Virus record (IMG/VR): IMGVR_UViG_3300020472_000100
Span: 1-32,053 of that record
Length of the DNA stretch: 32,053 nucleotides
Source: a virus
Direction: 5' to 3' (one strand)
Program-made: the position numbers and the translations under genes
Part shown: positions 7,280-31,480 of the stretch, in pieces
How positions within the stretch are numbered: position 1 is the stretch's first letter
How the letters are laid out: every line of letters begins with the position of its first letter
The notes under the pieces: generated by a model
Databases searched by the model: none
What the model saw: only the letters and a program-made list of their open reading frames with translations
Told to the model about the DNA's origin: nothing

Positions 7280-7425
7280 TGTATTGCGAATGTAAGAGCT
7301 TGTGTAGCTGTGAAAGCTCAAACACCGGATCACCAGCTGGTGAAACGAACAGGAAGCCTTCAGCGCCGTCTGAGAAGCCAACCTTAGCTTCGCGCAGGAG
7401 AGAGATTCTGAAATGGCGACAGTAA
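7279..7425 (+). CDS. 48-residue Cys-rich connector-region ORF
   Basis: The ORF starts within a TAATG overlap with the adaptor gene and runs into the next gene by 13 nt. The N-terminus has four cysteines in a CEC...CSC arrangement (residues 3, 5, 9 and 11) that could bind a metal; the rest is Ser/Pro-rich and basic. Tight overlap on both sides supports translation. The region also carries the palindrome TCACCAGCTGGTGA (7330-7343). It could be a head-closure component or a chance frame. Confidence 0.45.
   Translation: MYCECKSLCSCESSNTGSPAGETNRKPSAPSEKPTLASRRREILKWRQ
7330..7343. promoter_or_regulatory. perfect 14-bp palindrome TCACCAGCTGGTGA
   Basis: An identical palindrome recurs at 28267-28280, and a 13-of-14 copy lies at 242-254. 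The symmetric form suggests a dimeric protein-binding site. Here it lies inside the Cys-rich small ORF before the tail terminator gene. Confidence 0.5.
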
Positions 7426-19209: not shown

Positions 19210-19431
19210 ATGGCTGAAGAAGAAAAAGACAAACTCTCACGAACAACCAAACTCATTGTTGCTGTGACAGGACTGTTGGTCGCTGTCGGCACATTGGTCG
19301 GAGCGATTTCAGTGACACTTGGAGGCGGTGGAAGTGATGCTCCTCCTTATAGTTACACAGTGATTCACCTTGGTGATGGTGAAGGAATGACTTCTTATGA
19401 TGATTTTCTGCTGAATCACCCTTCAGGTTAA
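19210..19431 (+). CDS. small membrane protein of the lysis region
   Basis: A 73-residue protein with a charged N-terminus, one membrane helix (residues about 14-36: LIVAVTGLLVAVGTLVGAIS), a Gly-rich hinge, then a short polar tail with VIHLGDGEGMTSYDD. GGAGGG precedes ATG. Its stop codon lies inside the A-run of dispersed element copy 2. No named family is recognised; an anti-holin or holin-accessory role is possible. Confidence 0.6.
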   Translation: MAEEEKDKLSRTTKLIVAVTGLLVAVGTLVGAISVTLGGGGSDAPPYSYTVIHLGDGEGMTSYDDFLLNHPSG

Positions 19432-19502
19432 AAAAGCTCCTCCATACAGCCCTTCTAAGACGTTTCCAGCATTAGAGATGGGTCATAGGTCATTGAAAAA
19501 AT
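19430..19502 (+). repeat. dispersed intergenic element, copy 2
   Basis: Same order as copy 1: A6, GCTCCTCC, ATACAGCCCTTCTAAGACG, TTTCCAGC, a variable stretch, GATGGGTCATAGGTCAT, A-run. The first A residues are part of the stop codon of the preceding gene. AAAAGCT (19432-19438) is complementary to AGCTTTT (19503-19509) just past the end, so the element can be closed as a hairpin. Unlike the other copies it is followed by a terminator, not a start codon. Confidence 0.9.
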
Positions 19503-22349: not shown

Positions 22350-22617
22350 TGAGATCACTGAACTGTTCAGATCAGCTGGTTGTCCATTAACTCATGTGGA
22401 ACTCTTGAATCTTTACTCACAAGTATTCAAACCAGTGTCCGGGTCCGTATTGCAAGGCGCTCGAAGGGCTTTGATACAAGATGGGGTGATCTGCAAGTTC
22501 GGAAAAGTTAAAACCGCCACAGGAAGATCTTTAGAAACCTACGGATTGTCTGAATGGTTTGGAGTTGCTCCAGCTCTGGAAAATGGTGAATTGGAGGAAA
22601 TTGACGCTGATGATTAA
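22333..22617 (+). CDS. hypothetical protein of the replication block
   Basis: A 94-residue protein with a helical N-terminal domain (PDEITELFRSAGCPLTHVELLNLY), then QGARRALIQDGVICKFGKVK, which looks like a winged-helix fold with a beta hairpin. The C-terminus is acidic. ATG 22333 was chosen because AGGAG lies 6 nt upstream; TTG and GTG 3-6 nt further upstream are alternatives. It overlaps the nuclease-like gene by 17 nt. Its stop codon opens dispersed element copy 3. Confidence 0.55.
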   Translation: MIPTPDEITELFRSAGCPLTHVELLNLYSQVFKPVSGSVLQGARRALIQDGVICKFGKVKTATGRSLETYGLSEWFGVAPALENGELEEIDADD

Positions 22618-22687
22618 AAAAACTCCTCCACAGATCGCTTCTAAGGCGTTTCGAGAGAGTCCAATGGGTCATTGGTCATCTGAAAAG
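22616..22687 (+). repeat. dispersed intergenic element, copy 3 (most diverged)
   Basis: A7, CTCCTCC, ACAGATCGCTTCTAAGGCG, TTTCGAGA, AATGGGTCATTGGTCAT, A-rich end. It fills the whole gap between two genes: it begins in the stop codon of one and ends in the ribosome binding site of the next. CTCCTC (22623-22628) is exactly complementary to GAGGAG (22687-22692), the ribosome binding site of the next gene. Confidence 0.85.
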
Positions 22688-23511: not shown

Positions 23512-23738
23512 TGAGCTGGGCTGATGCAACGCTATTCATTCTCTGCTTGATTCTTTTCGTTGTTGCTTATATGTGCCTTTTGAAATTCATCGCCATGCAC
23601 ATGGAGAAACTCCGTTCAGATATTTTTTCAACGGTTATTTCGATAATGAGTTCAGTCAGCGAAGGAATAAAAGCTGGTTTAACTCAAGACGATATTTTGG
23701 ACCCGGAGAATACCAAAAATAATGGTCACGGTATTTAA
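23511..23738 (+). CDS. small membrane protein
   Basis: A 75-residue protein with a long transmembrane segment (residues about 7-31, LFILCLILFVVAYMCLLKFIAMH), then a helical region and a polar C-terminus. It overlaps the secreted lysozyme-like gene by 17 nt. The arrangement could be an anchor or accessory for that secreted protein. No family is recognised. Confidence 0.6.
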   Translation: MSWADATLFILCLILFVVAYMCLLKFIAMHMEKLRSDIFSTVISIMSSVSEGIKAGLTQDDILDPENTKNNGHGI

Positions 23739-24153
23739 ACGCATCGCTATAACGACCTTTTTTATCGTGGCGCTGTTTATTTTGGCGCTGGGAGAAGATT
23801 GTGAAGCCCAAGCACAGAAGCCTGAATATCCATATCAGGGTTTATGTGAAAAAGGCAACGGCGATCTTTACACAGCGGCTTTAATTATCAGAGAGTTCGG
23901 AGTTGAGAACGCTGTCAAAGCTCTCAGGATCGCTGGTTGCGAATCTTCTTTTGACCCTTACGCGAACAACCGTTCAACTGATGCTTCAGGCATTTACCAA
24001 TTCAAACCACGAACGTGGCTTTGGGTTTGTCAAGAAGCAGGCGTTGATTGTAGTTTGAACGCGCGCTATGACGCAGAATCAAACATCAGAGCTGGAGCAT
24101 ACTTAGCTCTAAGAAAAAAAGGAGGAGGGTGGCAACATTGGGAGTGCAAGTAA
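23722..24153 (+). CDS. secreted lysozyme-like transglycosylase (putative)
   Basis: A 143-residue protein. A signal peptide or anchor (FKRIAITTFFIVALFILALGEDCEA) precedes a lysozyme-like fold: IAGCESSFDPYANN with the probable catalytic Glu in CESSFDP, then DASGIYQFKPRTWLWVCQEAGVD, and NIRAGAYLAL. The pattern matches soluble lytic transglycosylases and Rpf-type enzymes. It lies among early/regulatory genes, far from the endolysin, so a role at entry, in cell-wall remodelling or in lysogen fitness is more likely than final lysis. The C-terminus overlaps the WhiB gene start. Confidence 0.75.
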   Translation: MVTVFKRIAITTFFIVALFILALGEDCEAQAQKPEYPYQGLCEKGNGDLYTAALIIREFGVENAVKALRIAGCESSFDPYANNRSTDASGIYQFKPRTWLWVCQEAGVDCSLNARYDAESNIRAGAYLALRKKGGGWQHWECK

Positions 24154-24458
24154 CTGACACAGGTGGAAACTCGGATTGGCTTCTCTTGGCAGCATGTAAA
24201 GACGCGCCAGCTGAAGTGTTTTTCCCTGAAGGAGGTTGCAGATCGAGGGTAGTTCGTGAAGCTGTCAAACATTATTGCGGAAGATGCCCTGTTTGGAATG
24301 AATGTTTTGAAAACTCTTTCCATGCAAACAAGTATTTCGGAGATTTACCCATCGAAGAAGAAGGGATTTGGGCTGGGTTAATTAAAACTGATCGAAAGAG
24401 ATACAGGAACGATCCTGCGAAAGCTAAAGCTCTTGTTCTAGGGATCGAAACACGATGA
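24138..24458 (+). CDS. WhiB-family iron-sulfur transcription regulator
   Basis: A 106-residue protein. The four cysteines of the Fe-S cluster are in AACKDAP, and CGRCPVWNEC (CxxCx5C). The signature GIWAGL (GVWGG-like) follows, then the basic tail TDRKRYR for DNA binding. WhiB proteins are exclusive to Actinobacteria and their phages, and bind the sigma factor to modify promoter choice. Start choice: TTG 24138 (8 nt after GGAGGG); GTG 24129 is an alternative that lies too close to the site. It overlaps the lysozyme-like gene and the next gene (ATGA). Confidence 0.9.
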   Translation: MGVQVTDTGGNSDWLLLAACKDAPAEVFFPEGGCRSRVVREAVKHYCGRCPVWNECFENSFHANKYFGDLPIEEEGIWAGLIKTDRKRYRNDPAKAKALVLGIETR

Positions 24459-27488: not shown

Positions 27489-27560
27489 AAAAAACCTCCT
27501 CCGTACAGCCCTTCTACGGCGTTTCCAGCACTCAAGATGGGTCATAGGTCATCGAAAATT
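27489..27560 (+). repeat. dispersed intergenic element, copy 4
   Basis: A6, CCTCCTCC, GTACAGCCCTTCTACGGCG, TTTCCAGC, variable, GATGGGTCATAGGTCAT, A-rich end. Its core is nearly identical to copy 1. It lies between the C5 enzyme stop (12 nt upstream) and the start of the third methyltransferase (10 nt downstream), filling the gap. Confidence 0.9.
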
Positions 27561-27569
27561 GGAAAGAAT

Positions 27570-28265
27570 ATGAATGAACTGGTTTACCAAGATCAGTACG
27601 TCAAATTATTTCATGGCGATTATCGCGCTGTTTTGCCTTCTTTGAATGTTTCACATTTTGATTGTGTTCTTCTTGATCCCCCTTTTGATATTTGGGAAGA
27701 AGTTGGACCGGGTGAGTTCGAGCAAATCCCGAAGAAGATTATTTTTACGAATTGGCAGCACAGAGCTGTTGTTGAGAACCATTTCGGACAACCAAGAAGC
27801 GAGTTTGTTTGGTATTTCAAAGATGGTCGATGGGTTTCTCACCGTTTACCAATACAAGCCCATGAACTGATCTGCATATACGGCGAAACAGGCGAAGCGT
27901 ATGTTGGCGAAAAGAACGAAGATCGAACTCCGCAAAATAAAGGATCAGGCTCGGTTGGTAGGGACACTTATGATGAAAGAATTTATGTTCCAAGAGAGAG
28001 AAAGATGTTGAGAAGCGTGTTGGAGTATCCAAGAAACCTGAGAAACGGAATGGGAGCGTGGGGCAAACCTGAAGGGCTTATCCGTAACCTTTTGGAGTTT
28101 GTTTCACCAAACCAGGTGTTGGATACTTTCGCTGGTGGAGGCTCCACCCTTGTTGTAGCTAAGGAATTGAAAATCAAAGCTGTCGGAATAGAGCTGGAAG
28201 AAAAGAATTGTGAACTAGCTATCTCAAAACTGGAAAAAGCCCCCACCTTGTTCGATGGGGGCTAA
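27570..28265 (+). CDS. DNA methyltransferase, amino type (DPPF)
   Basis: A 231-residue beta-class enzyme. The catalytic motif DPPF (residues 36-39, VLLDPPFD) and the C-terminal SAM motif DTFAGGGSTLVVAKELKIKAVG are clear. The DPPF motif fits N6-adenine or N4-cytosine methylation. ATG at 27570 follows GGAAAG; the open frame further upstream covers the dispersed element and is not used. No cognate nuclease is visible. It is the third methyltransferase in a row and is followed by the end of the rightward genes. Confidence 0.88.
   Translation: MNELVYQDQYVKLFHGDYRAVLPSLNVSHFDCVLLDPPFDIWEEVGPGEFEQIPKKIIFTNWQHRAVVENHFGQPRSEFVWYFKDGRWVSHRLPIQAHELICIYGETGEAYVGEKNEDRTPQNKGSGSVGRDTYDERIYVPRERKMLRSVLEYPRNLRNGMGAWGKPEGLIRNLLEFVSPNQVLDTFAGGGSTLVVAKELKIKAVGIELEEKNCELAISKLEKAPTLFDGG
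28234..28263 (-). terminator. terminator for the leftward operon
   Basis: AGCCCCCA (28238-28245) pairs perfectly with TGGGGGCT (28256-28263), with a 10-nt loop. Read leftwards the stem is followed by TTTTT (28238-28234), so it ends the leftward operon. It lies inside the last codons of the rightward methyltransferase. A second palindrome (28267-28280) and a T-rich stretch (28288-28295) could serve the opposite direction. Confidence 0.75.
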
Positions 28266-28266
28266 T

Positions 28267-28280
28267 TCACCAGCTGGTGA
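28267..28280. promoter_or_regulatory. perfect 14-bp palindrome TCACCAGCTGGTGA
   Basis: The same palindrome is at 7330-7343. It lies exactly between the convergent rightward and leftward genes, outside any coding sequence, and is the clearest candidate for a protein-binding site. Confidence 0.55.
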
Positions 28281-28289
28281 TCTGACGTT

Positions 28290-28463
28290 TTATTTCCAGT
28301 TATTCTGATCTTCTAAAAAACAGGGGTTGCACTCCTCATGGAGTTCAATGTGTAACCAACAGTCTTTTTTGGTGTCGTAGATCACGTTTTTTCCGCAATC
28401 GACACACTCTGAGCCATCGAACACTCCATCTTGAAGTTCAGTAGAGTTTGGGAGTCTTTCCAT
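28290..28463 (-). CDS. 57-residue zinc-ribbon-like protein
   Basis: The last gene of the leftward operon, ATG at 28463 overlapping the stop of the upstream gene (TAATG). GAGGAGG of the upstream gene's last codons is the ribosome binding site. CVDCGKN (residues 20-26), Cys35, two His (WLHIELH) and CNPC give a plausible Zn site. No family is recognised. The last gene before the leftward terminator, it follows the same pattern as its neighbours. Confidence 0.65.
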   Translation of the reverse strand: MERLPNSTELQDGVFDGSECVDCGKNVIYDTKKDCWLHIELHEECNPCFLEDQNNWK

Positions 28464-28720
28464 TATTGAACCTCCTCAAACCACTCAACTAAACCCTCTT
28501 TCTCAGCTTGCGACATACTTACAAACTTATAACCACCACTAGCAGTTTTCTTATCGCCAAACTGTAATTTGTCAAACATTCTTTCAACACAATCCCTTTC
28601 TCTCTGAGTTGCATGACCATAACTGATCTCATCTGCGATGTGTAGCTCATACAAATTGACAGCATGTATGAGATGTGACCATTGAGCAGAGGTTAAGGTA
28701 CAACTAATTTTCTTAGACAT
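28463..28720 (-). CDS. 85-residue hypothetical protein
   Basis: This helical, polar protein has SAQWSHLIHAVNLYELHIADEI at the N-terminus and AEKEGLVEWFEEVQ at the end. The final codons GAG GAG GTT encode EEV and double as the ribosome binding site of the following gene. No family is recognised. The TAATG junctions on both sides show it belongs to the leftward unit. Confidence 0.65.
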   Translation of the reverse strand: MSKKISCTLTSAQWSHLIHAVNLYELHIADEISYGHATQRERDCVERMFDKLQFGDKKTASGGYKFVSMSQAEKEGLVEWFEEVQ

Positions 28721-28995
28721 TATTCAACCTCCTCAAAAAGAGTGGGAAAGATATCTGATTCAACACAGGCAAAGATTCCCCCTGAGTAGTAATCATCCTG
28801 TTCCATTTGAGCCAAATAAGTGTCTCTTGCATCATCCAAGCCATGAGCTACTGTCCAAAAAGATTCGGTGTCGCTCTTGTCCTCGTTCTCAAACGAGGCA
28901 ACAACTATGAACAAACCATCTTCGTTGTGTCTCAGCTGATTCAGCATGTTGGCGACAGCGATTTTGGCTTCGGGTATTGGTGTTACTTTATTCAT
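28720..28995 (-). CDS. 91-residue hypothetical protein
   Basis: The pattern VANMLNQLRHNEDGLFIVVAS, then SFWTVAHGLDDARDTYLAQMEQ and an acidic C-terminus looks like a small alpha/beta protein. EEVE at the end again carries GAGGAGG for the next gene. The ribosome binding site for this gene is GGAGG in the last codons of the HTH gene upstream. No family is recognised. Confidence 0.65.
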   Translation of the reverse strand: MNKVTPIPEAKIAVANMLNQLRHNEDGLFIVVASFENEDKSDTESFWTVAHGLDDARDTYLAQMEQDDYYSGGIFACVESDIFPTLFEEVE

Positions 28996-29177
28996 TATTT
29001 TTCCTCCAGTATTTTTCTAACTTTTTCGTGGCTGATTCCACATGCTTCTCCGATGTCTCTCAGACTTGCTCCATGCTCTTTTGCGTCTCTTATATGTGCA
29101 TGAAGATGAGCCTCAAGAACGTTCATTTCTTGGCGGATTTCGTTCAAACGAACAAAAGTTGTTTCTTTATCGTTCAT
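28995..29177 (-). CDS. small helix-turn-helix protein
   Basis: A 60-residue protein with a helical N-terminus (TTFVRLNEIRQEMNVLEAHLHAHI) and a C-terminal HTH: GASLRDIGEACGISHEKVRKIL. ATG at 29177 overlaps the upstream stop (TAATG). In-frame codons upstream lie inside the previous gene. This is the only clear HTH regulator in the leftward operon, so it is a candidate phage repressor or operon autoregulator, although repressors are normally larger. Confidence 0.65.
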   Translation of the reverse strand: MNDKETTFVRLNEIRQEMNVLEAHLHAHIRDAKEHGASLRDIGEACGISHEKVRKILEEK

Positions 29178-29983
29178 TACTTTCCCGCCTTTTCTTCCAA
29201 TCGAGTGATGAATCTTGGTCGCGTGTCCATCGACTTTGTTGGATCCCATTTCGCCCACGCTTCGGGGTATAGCTCAAAGAGTCCCCATCCACCTTGAAAT
29301 CTCCATTCAGCTTGTCGATAGTGAATATGGTGAGCTAGTTCCTCCGTGAATAGATGCTCCGTGTAGTCAGCCCTGAACACTTTTTCTTCTTTCCAATGCC
29401 ATTGGTTGACTATCCCTTCGATTTTGTCAGGGTCGTCATCCAAGTGGAAATCAAAGTCAAGGAAGGCAAGAGCGTCTGTCCATGCAACCGCTTCTTCTTC
29501 GCTGGTTATCGGAAGATAGAAGGCTCTTATCATTGCGACAAGACTGCTGGCAAGATTCTCCACGCCTTTGATGTATGAGTGCTGGAAATGAATCCCACCG
29601 TCTTTCTCCATGTCATGCCAGTTGGCGTAGTGACCAATGTGGAACTCATCCCATGAGAGGCGCTCTTGCCCCAATGTGGAGTTTCTCTCATCAATAAAGG
29701 CACTCAGGTCGGTGTCCAATTCCCAAGGTGAGAAAGGTTCACCACCTGACCCTGCGTATCTATCTTCAGGGATAACTGTCTCAGCTCCGGTAATCCAAAT
29801 GAATGGAGTTTCTTCGCTTCCTGAGTAATCCTCTAGCCCTGCTGTCCACGGATATTGTTCACCGAAAGCATTGACTTGAATTATCATGCAGTTCCCTCCG
29901 CTGTTGTACCACTCAGTTTTCCATCCGAGTGGCTCAAGAACTCTGTCAAGTCCTTCCATTATTTCTCTGCAAGTCATACCCAT
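29177..29983 (-). CDS. 268-residue hypothetical protein
   Basis: The largest gene in the leftward operon. It is acidic and aromatic-rich, with WKTEWYNSGGNCMIIQVN, FIWITGAE, WDEFHIGHYANWHDMEKDGGIHFQHSYI and LAHHIHYRQAEWRFQGGWGLFELYPEAW. Several His/Asp/Glu clusters could bind metal but no named motif fits. ATG at 29983 with GGAGG was chosen; the frame is open upstream only inside the previous gene. Conserved Trp density suggests a compact globular fold. No family is recognised. Confidence 0.65.
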   Translation of the reverse strand: MGMTCREIMEGLDRVLEPLGWKTEWYNSGGNCMIIQVNAFGEQYPWTAGLEDYSGSEETPFIWITGAETVIPEDRYAGSGGEPFSPWELDTDLSAFIDERNSTLGQERLSWDEFHIGHYANWHDMEKDGGIHFQHSYIKGVENLASSLVAMIRAFYLPITSEEEAVAWTDALAFLDFDFHLDDDPDKIEGIVNQWHWKEEKVFRADYTEHLFTEELAHHIHYRQAEWRFQGGWGLFELYPEAWAKWDPTKSMDTRPRFITRLEEKAGK

Positions 29984-30177
29984 TAGAGAACCTCCACGTT
30001 TCCGATTTGAACTTTTCTGTGCCAAATCTCGTCAGAATCCCATGCAAATCCATGCCCACGATCCTGTTCAATACCCCATTCAATAAATTCTTTTTTTAGC
30101 GCTTTAACATTTTCCTTCTCGGAATTTCCAACTACACAAAATGTAAATTTGCCGTAGTCCTTTACACTCATTATCAT
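29983..30177 (-). CDS. 64-residue hypothetical protein
   Basis: Sequence VKDYGKFTFCVVGNSEKENVKALKKEF resembles a small alpha/beta unit; the end (WHRKVQIGNVEVL) encodes the GGAGG of the next gene. Two closely spaced ATG codons (30177 and 30171) are possible starts. TAATG overlap with the upstream gene. No family is recognised. Confidence 0.6.
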   Translation of the reverse strand: MIMSVKDYGKFTFCVVGNSEKENVKALKKEFIEWGIEQDRGHGFAWDSDEIWHRKVQIGNVEVL

Positions 30178-30515
30178 TACTTTCCCTCCTTCTCTTGCTT
30201 CACGAATTTCTCTGCTTTAACTCTGTTTGCACGATGAATGATCTTCTGTGTTATTTGTTGTTTCGCCCATTGAGCGTCTGTCAACTCCTGACAGTTTGTT
30301 GATAATCCAATTCGAGCATGAATGTCATCGACTGTGAAGTTATCTTCGTTTAACATCTCAAGTCGGGCGAAAACCTTGCCCCAATTCTTTTCCGTTATGC
30401 TTTGAAAGCCAATCACCATCATCCAATGAATCAATGCTTCGGTCACTGGGTATTCATCATCTTCCATCAAGCGCTCCCAGTTTTCGCACTTGCTTATGTT
30501 CCAATTCAAACTCAT
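30177..30515 (-). CDS. 112-residue phage protein (MSLNWN family, unknown function)
   Basis: The pattern MSLNWNISKCENWERLMEDDEYPVTEALIHWMMVIGFQSITEKNWGKVFARLEMLNEDN with IHARIGLSTNC recalls a small protein found in several T4-like and other aquatic phages (from memory). The C-terminus is basic and Gln-rich. Function is unknown. Ribosome binding site GGAGGG; TAATG junctions on both sides. Confidence 0.65.
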   Translation of the reverse strand: MSLNWNISKCENWERLMEDDEYPVTEALIHWMMVIGFQSITEKNWGKVFARLEMLNEDNFTVDDIHARIGLSTNCQELTDAQWAKQQITQKIIHRANRVKAEKFVKQEKEGK

Positions 30516-30727
30516 TACTTTCCCTCCTTACAGGATCGGTATTCAACCATGTTTATGTTTGAGTATTCTTCAGTAAGCCCTTGTTCATGTGCTGAACTTT
30601 TGATCGCATCAATCGCGAACGAGTGAGCATCAATAGCTTGAGGCAATGCGTCTTTTGGAAGTTGCACATATCCTGTCCAGTTGCCTAACCGGATTTGGAT
30701 GTTCCAAGTTTCTGTTTCTGTTTTCAT
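30515..30727 (-). CDS. 70-residue hypothetical protein
   Basis: A small beta/alpha protein: ETWNIQIRLGNWTGYVQLPKDALPQAIDAHSFAIDAI followed by an acidic stretch. ATG at 30727 was chosen because AAGGAGAG lies 12 nt upstream; the longer frame to 30787 would overlap the upstream gene by 56 nt. No family is recognised. Confidence 0.6.
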   Translation of the reverse strand: MKTETETWNIQIRLGNWTGYVQLPKDALPQAIDAHSFAIDAIKSSAHEQGLTEEYSNINMVEYRSCKEGK

Positions 30728-30731
30728 GTTT

Positions 30732-31301
30732 TTAGTTTCTCTCCTTGTGAGATTCAATGATCTGTTTGACCATTGCTTTTTGTTCACCTATTCCGCAGTT
30801 ACCTTGCATGACTTGATATGGCTCAACGCTTATATCAGTCAAAGCAAGTGCTTCGGTTAGGCGAGCAAAGTATGTCTTGGGTAGCCAAGAGTCGATCTGA
30901 TAGTTGTTGTCTGAAAGAAGGTAAGCATCTTCGACAATTTGAGTGAGTTGTTCAGCAATGCAACCAACTGTGATGTCTCCTTCATCTCCCATCTTTACGT
31001 CATAGGGAGCGACCATTGCGTCAGGGTTAACGAGTCCATGTTTTGCTGAGAGGATGAACACGAAGTCGCAATGTCTCTCAGCACATTCAAGTTGTGCTTG
31101 GAAGTTGGTGCTTGTGTAGAGATTCCTAGCTTCTGTGGGATGATCTGTCTTAGCTGATCCGCATGGGATAATCCCGATTGATACTTCTCTAGCTTGAACA
31201 GCTGGATCACGGAAGAAGCGGTTGGTTCTCATCGTGTGTCGAGCCATGTATTTCCCGACTGCTGTTGCTATTCTTTCTGTGCTTGTTGTTTCTGCTCTCA
31301 T
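30732..31301 (-). CDS. DUF6884-like protein
   Basis: A 189-residue protein, first gene of the leftward operon. REVSIGIIPCGSAKTDHPTEARNLYTSTNFQAQ, then FVFILSAKHGLVNPDAMVAPYDVKMGD is the signature I associate with DUF6884 proteins of phages and plasmids (Pro-Cys-Gly-Ser-x-K and Ser-x-K-His-Gly-Leu). The family's chemistry is not known to me with certainty; the Cys and His conservation suggest an enzyme. ATG at 31301 with AGGAG was chosen over a longer frame to 31361, which would include the promoter region. Confidence 0.6.
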   Translation of the reverse strand: MRAETTSTERIATAVGKYMARHTMRTNRFFRDPAVQAREVSIGIIPCGSAKTDHPTEARNLYTSTNFQAQLECAERHCDFVFILSAKHGLVNPDAMVAPYDVKMGDEGDITVGCIAEQLTQIVEDAYLLSDNNYQIDSWLPKTYFARLTEALALTDISVEPYQVMQGNCGIGEQKAMVKQIIESHKERN

Positions 31302-31332
31302 GCTTTTCTCCTGTTTTTGTTTTTTATTTTTA

Positions 31333-31372
31333 AAATTACTAAAAAAAAGGGTAAATGTCAATAATTATGACA
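31333..31372 (-). promoter_or_regulatory. promoter and operator-like site of the leftward operon
   Basis: On the minus strand TTGACA (31361-31356) is a perfect -35. Seventeen nt further, TAATTT (31338-31333) is a weak -10. The inverted repeat TGTCA-N7-TGACA (31356-31372) covers the -35, a typical repressor position. Expected transcript starts just before the ribosome binding site of the gene at 31301. Confidence 0.55.
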
Positions 31373-31409
31373 ACAGAAAACCCTTATTTATCAACAAAGA
31401 GTTGCTTCT

Positions 31410-31425
31410 AATAAAGCGCCTTATT
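31410..31425. promoter_or_regulatory. 16-bp near-perfect palindrome AATAAAGCGCCTTATT
   Basis: Seven of eight base pairs match across the centre. It lies in the divergent gap between the leftward promoter and the HNH gene, so it may be a second operator. Confidence 0.4.
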
Positions 31426-31480
31426 CTTTTATGTCCAGCGGTACTGGCGAAGCTCTTGATTACATGGCAATATTTTCTTA

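Follow-up and report, generated by a model that had tools for sequence, protein, structure and literature searches.

The leftward operon and its genomic context

The window, that is, the whole stretch of DNA analysed, is a 32,053-base virus record (IMGVR_UViG_3300020472_000100, positions 1 to 32,053). Nine consecutive minus-strand open reading frames, numbered g1 to g9, lie at its right end and span positions 31301 to 28290. They are listed here with the signals on either side.

31302..31440, minus strand: leader with a candidate promoter (TTGACA-17-TAATTT) and an imperfect palindrome, AATAAGGCGCTTTATT, at 31410-31425; conserved in three relatives
30732..31301, minus strand: g1, 189 aa, predicted DUF6884 / YaaA-like fold protein (profile, motifs and model)
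30515..30727, minus strand: g2, 70 aa; homologue in the 81-kb marine phage L011
30177..30515, minus strand: g3, 112 aa; homologues in L011 (81%) and in Brevundimonas phages (32%), among small genes
29983..30177, minus strand: g4, 64 aa; absent from two of three relatives; no described family
29177..29983, minus strand: g5, 268 aa, acidic (pI 4.6); no known family
28995..29177, minus strand: g6, 60 aa, small helix-turn-helix (HTH) protein; phrog_686 at E 2e-8, Pfam sigma-70 region 4-like match below cut-off
28720..28995, minus strand: g7, 91 aa, very acidic (pI 4.1); 96-97% conserved in relatives; no described family
28463..28720, minus strand: g8, 85 aa, flanked by a 20-nt direct repeat, TTTGAGGAGGTTSAATAATG; no described family
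28290..28463, minus strand: g9, 57 aa, zinc-finger-like (CxxC...H...CxxC), with Cys and His kept in relatives
28229..28262, minus strand: intrinsic terminator of the leftward transcript (hairpin and T run), in the 3' end of a rightward methyltransferase gene

The operon was compared with three marine IMG/VR contigs, two of which have nearly the same sequence. The coding signal and the conservation in these contigs confirm the leftward nine-gene operon of the original prediction, although "tiny" describes its genes loosely, with g1 and g5 reaching 189 and 268 codons. The codon bias of the phage is found in frame for all nine, while the five other frames are negative; g8 and g9 give the weakest signal. 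Pairwise dN/dS values against two relatives are mostly 0.1-0.8, with few substitutions, and below 1 where informative (g4 is represented by one pair, and for g8 there was no relative to compare); a single synonymous change lies behind the one value above 1. On this combined evidence g1 to g9 are real genes, g8 on weaker grounds, namely a modest codon signal, its Shine-Dalgarno (SD) sequence and its junction.

Searches of PHROGs, Pfam, defence models and NCBIfam bear out the expectation that the recognisable proteins would be limited to an HTH and a DUF6884-like one. The L011 homologues of g2 and g3 belong to a block of small genes with an SSB-like ORF (named by eye) nearby. For g5, three close relatives were found, all in viral contigs, and none in annotated phages or in the genome_contigs set; its structure model, built from 4 near-identical sequences, had a pLDDT of 41 and was not used. 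The HTH type of g6 is common in phages. A search with g7 found no relative in annotated phages, and one with g6 found none at E 0.01; g8 had no homologue in either viral contigs or phages.

All other genes of the record run in the opposite direction to the operon. They code for terminase, portal, protease, capsid, tape measure and endolysin, followed by an integrase (19951), a replication gene, an RHH-like protein (below the Pfam cut-off), an SLT transglycosylase, a WhiB-like protein and three DNA methyltransferases. The record is that of an uncultured marine HK97-type siphophage, and the integrase and WhiB-like genes indicate that the phage is probably temperate with an actinobacterial host. 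The WhiB-like gene (24129-24458, PF02467) is the sole host evidence; the same argument from WhiB to host was used for a marine Actinomarina phage by Mizuno et al. (PMC3861242). A search for the terminase in GTDB genomes returned one 89% match, on a 20-kb contig in a Planctomycetaceae MAG, which is probably misbinned phage DNA and gives no host. Contig L048 (NHBP01000029.1), binned in a Planctomycetaceae MAG, carries close relatives of the head and tail genes and is probably a misbinned phage contig.

The operon is flanked by the last methyltransferase gene on one side and an HNH gene on the other. It was expected to lie opposite to the late genes, whereas its facing neighbours are the methyltransferase and early genes, i.e. 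an early/DNA-modification block. Several related contigs have their first base no more than about 100 bases ahead of the small terminase gene, or their last base shortly after the HNH gene, which suggests that these are natural genome ends. Other features were seen elsewhere in the record and its relatives. The SLT transglycosylase-like protein (23722-24153) has a hydrophobic N-terminus, and its gene, which is remote from the lysis genes, lies in the early region. A ParB-like/methyltransferase-like gene, named by eye and absent from the window, lies between the small and large terminase genes in two relatives (L051, 695-1570; L055, 1065-2567). In one relative (L004, 5491-6333), the WhiB gene and the gene next to it are separated by an inserted PAPS-reductase-like gene (SFGGGVQS motif, named by eye), joined to them by 4-base overlaps.

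The terminator predicted for the operon is real: downstream of g9, AGCCCCCATCGAACAAGGTGGGGGCTTTTTCC, read leftward, folds into a strong hairpin with a T run and is identical in the relatives (hairpin AGCCCCCATCGAACAAGGTGGGGGCTTTTT, z -4.6 for the 86-nt stretch). The promoter is less clear. A plausible candidate, TTGACA-17-TAATTT, is conserved in the relatives, but its -10 is poor, a consensus scan made no call, and the leader as a whole is equally conserved, so that conservation does not single it out. With this terminator and a plausible promoter, the notion of a separate leftward, non-virion operon is supported. The operator-like repeat that was also proposed amounts to a single imperfect palindrome, with no second copy found. 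A different palindrome, ATCACCAGCTGGTGAA, occurs at 240-256, 7328-7344 and 28266-28282 of the window (three sites with up to 3 mismatches, 0.13 expected). All relatives conserve the site that follows the operon, and L050 and L051 keep the one at 7329; the sequence is a possible protein-binding site.

The integrase, the direction opposite to all other genes, and the presence of a terminator and a promoter candidate could also be read as signs of a lysogeny operon, expressed from the prophage to give superinfection immunity or a benefit to the host, with g6 or another gene as repressor. We consider this distinctly unlikely, as the record holds no CI-like HTH_3 repressor, the operator-like palindrome occurs once, and no copy of g5 is found in genome_contigs. 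The combination of repressor and repeated operators that marks an immunity operon is lacking as far as the HTH_3 type is concerned, other repressor types, including g6, lying outside that search.

Junctions and gene turnover

The claim that nearly all junctions read TAATG holds for seven of the eight, each with a one-base overlap of stop and start codons; g1 and g2 are separated by a 4-base gap. Among the rightward genes such junctions number about 6 of 39 by hand count (Fisher p 2e-4 versus the operon). Pairing energies with the anti-SD sequence at the nine starts range from -7.4 to -13.7 kcal/mol, compared with a random mean of -3.8 and a 1st percentile of -11.7, and the SD of each next gene lies a few bases upstream of the start, inside the last codons of the previous gene. 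These are the sequence features expected of a translationally coupled operon. That proteins end in Glu-Glu-Val where the ribosome-binding site is encoded is correct for g7 and g8, where GAGGAGGTT is read in this way, but for those two junctions only; the other C-termini at junctions read KEGK, KAGK, LEEK or VEVL. One-base overlaps are abundant, and their association with translational coupling in a termination-reinitiation arrangement is established (PMC10666635). TAATG coupling is commonplace, and in this respect the operon is of a common sort.

The junctions fall into two families by sequence. The first comprises g2|g3, g3|g4 and g5|g6 (16-18 of 20 bases identical) and the second g7|g8 and g8|g9 (19 of 20), while all other pairs share 10-14 of 20. 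Gene order and junctions are kept in the three marine contigs, except that g8 is missing from all three and g4 from two. In the window, g8 sits between TTTGAGGAGGTTGAATAATG and TTTGAGGAGGTTCAATAATG, which are identical at 19 of 20 positions, whereas the relatives have a single TACGAGGAGGTTCAATAATG between g7 and g9. The 17-base core of this repeat, with up to 3 mismatches, has 4 copies in the window against 0.14 expected from shuffles. In the relatives lacking g4, the end of g3 (AAGGAGGGAAAGTAATG) joins straight to the start of g5 at the TAATG joint. The homology of g3 to L011 begins exactly at GTAATG, the sequence upstream being unrelated.

Judging from these alignments, whole genes would come and go exactly at short joints between neighbours, made up of the overlapping stop and start and the ribosome site, and this is the distinctive trait of the operon. 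The comparison does not tell gain from loss for g8 and g4. Three such cases in one operon are suggestive but do not suffice to establish a rule; selection against breaks within genes, if it operates, would likewise be expected to leave homology ending close to gene boundaries. A more general reading is that each gene is a portable cassette, composed of a start codon, the ORF and, in its last codons, the ribosome-binding site of the next gene, closed by TAATG. The conserved joint (GAGGAGGTTSAATAATG or AAGGAGGGAAAGTAATG) would serve both as the coupling site and as a short stretch of recombination homology, so that genes could be inserted or lost without harm to the translation of their neighbours. 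This reading, which would be a general rule for phage operons of tiny genes, is tentative, and we regard it as rather unlikely.

Repeated sequence was also observed outside the operon. An element of ~70 nt is dispersed between genes on the plus strand (2582-2650, 19430-19499, 22616-22685 and 27489-27558), its copies being 71-84% identical. One of its frames reads KK[AT]PPYSPSKxFPALxMGHRSxK, a pattern found only in related marine contigs. Relative to L006, the copy at 27489 adds ~90 bp between two genes that otherwise overlap. Whether the element is coding is uncertain, two copies having no canonical in-frame start and one copy in a relative having an internal stop.

Gene 1 and possible functions

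The g1 protein matches PF21818 with 81.4 bits (curated cut-off 30) and is the sole DUF6884 place in the record. Its CxxxK and LSAxxG motifs (C47, K51, L84-S85-A86, G89) are invariant in 18 homologues. An AlphaFold2 model based on 18 phage homologues reached a pLDDT of 78, residues 1-31 being unreliable. Searched by sequence, the PDB gave no match to g1. E. coli YaaA (5caj) is the top match of the model by Foldseek (prob 1.00, E 2.5e-3) and also comes first by VIA-align (Z 9.5, 4.0 A over 135; next row Z 6.0), so the predicted fold is closest to YaaA. According to the Pfam authors, DUF6884 proteins are YaaA-like in fold and have a cleft of positive charge; they propose DNA binding or repair and cite YfjM as interacting with DNA lesions (PMC11701544). 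Annotated phage records with a DUF6884 relative of g1 number 170 and come mostly from mycobacteriophages, and in the two right-end cases that were inspected the g1 relative lies among small unknown genes. The PADLOC models PDC-M57A (3e-17) and DpdC (E 2e-4, weak) match the same core of g1, which shows a shared domain, not a function.

The weak DpdC match touches on DNA hypermodification, in which g1 would act in the 7-deazaguanine pathway. In the Rosebush-type phage Tres, the DUF6884 gene (gene 8) adjoins queC/D/E and folE genes, and Rosebush DNA carries dPreQ0 (PMC6884629). In the present record, however, neither a TGT/DpdA-type transglycosylase (PF01702 profile, with divergent DpdA2-type enzymes outside the search) nor the preQ0 synthesis family QueC (PF06508) was found, although the controls gave signal, and two other DUF6884 phages that were inspected have no such context. 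This role, prompted by the Tres neighbourhood, was therefore dropped for lack of pathway genes in the record and is very improbable.

In another explanation, several of the genes (the acidic g5, g7 and g9, and perhaps g1) would counteract restriction, CRISPR or other host defences as soon as the DNA has entered, g6 serving as an Aca-like autoregulator. Small genes of no known family beside an HTH gene are in keeping with this, as are the strongly acidic g7 and g9 (net -15 and -14 per 100 residues), the match of g1 to PDC-M57A, a candidate model, and the three nearby DNA methyltransferases, which suggest restriction pressure. The proteins of the virion block are equally acidic, however, and for this reason acidic DNA mimicry by g5, g7 and g9 was rejected. 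No operon gene matches an Acr, Aca or other known anti-defence family in PHROGs, Pfam or NCBIfam, which are general libraries and not specific to Acr/Aca. We consider counter-defence unlikely. The anti-defence or lysogeny function envisaged in the original prediction thus finds no positive support, there being no defence or counter-defence family beyond the DUF6884-type models, no HTH_3 repressor and no repeated operator.

Interpretation and comparison with known systems

What lies at the locus is a conserved gene block of nine coding frames, led by a DUF6884-family gene, joined by one-base overlaps with the SD in the upstream gene, and closed by an intrinsic terminator. With a probability of roughly 0.6, we read it as an accessory operon of non-structural genes, transcribed leftward as a polycistronic unit in a marine siphophage that looks temperate and probably has an actinobacterial host, with coupled translation, early action on phage or host DNA and on host processes, and turnover at the joints. 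A single mRNA would start just upstream of g1, and ribosomes would pass from gene to gene by termination-reinitiation. The products may act early in infection, a timing suggested by gene content only, with the YaaA-fold g1 leading as a putative DNA-binding or base-processing factor and g6 as a probable small regulator. The gene set would turn over by recombination at the short ribosome-site/TAATG joints, as with g8 and g4.

Understood as an accessory operon, the locus offers a clean small example of genes being gained or lost while translation stays intact. It also puts a DUF6884/YaaA-fold protein at the head of a marine phage accessory operon, as its first gene. Should recombination at the joint prove to be the rule, the boundaries of mobile small genes, including counter-defence genes, would be predictable from sequence.

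Compared with DUF6884 (PF21818), B. subtilis YfjM and E. coli YaaA, g1 shares the profile match, the CxxxK and LSAxxG motifs and the predicted YaaA-like fold, and differs in its phage origin and in an N-terminal stretch of 36 residues modelled at low confidence. The junctions resemble the one-base overlapping (TAATG) gene pairs described previously (PMC10666635) in their overlapping stop and start and in having the SD inside the upstream gene; here there are seven in a row, which is dense, but the mechanism is not different. The Start Associated Sequences of Cluster K mycobacteriophages (PMC3203893) are likewise short repeated motifs at the starts of non-structural genes that contain a Shine-Dalgarno sequence. 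In contrast to these, the operon has few copies of each of its two junction families and lacks extended inverted repeats, and its starts do not match the 13-bp Cluster K motif GGGATAGGAGCCC with up to 2 mismatches. A literature search on recombination at overlapping start/stop joints found nothing direct. Recombination of the same kind was described for mycobacteriophage Island3 gene 68 / Brujita (Pope et al. 2011, PMC3029335). In that case about 50 bp of C-terminal coding sequence are shared, whereas here the shared 20 bp comprise the ribosome-binding site and the overlapping stop and start. Given the Island3 event and the established coupling at one-base overlaps, the type of event seen here is already known, and the rest is an ordinary tightly packed accessory operon.
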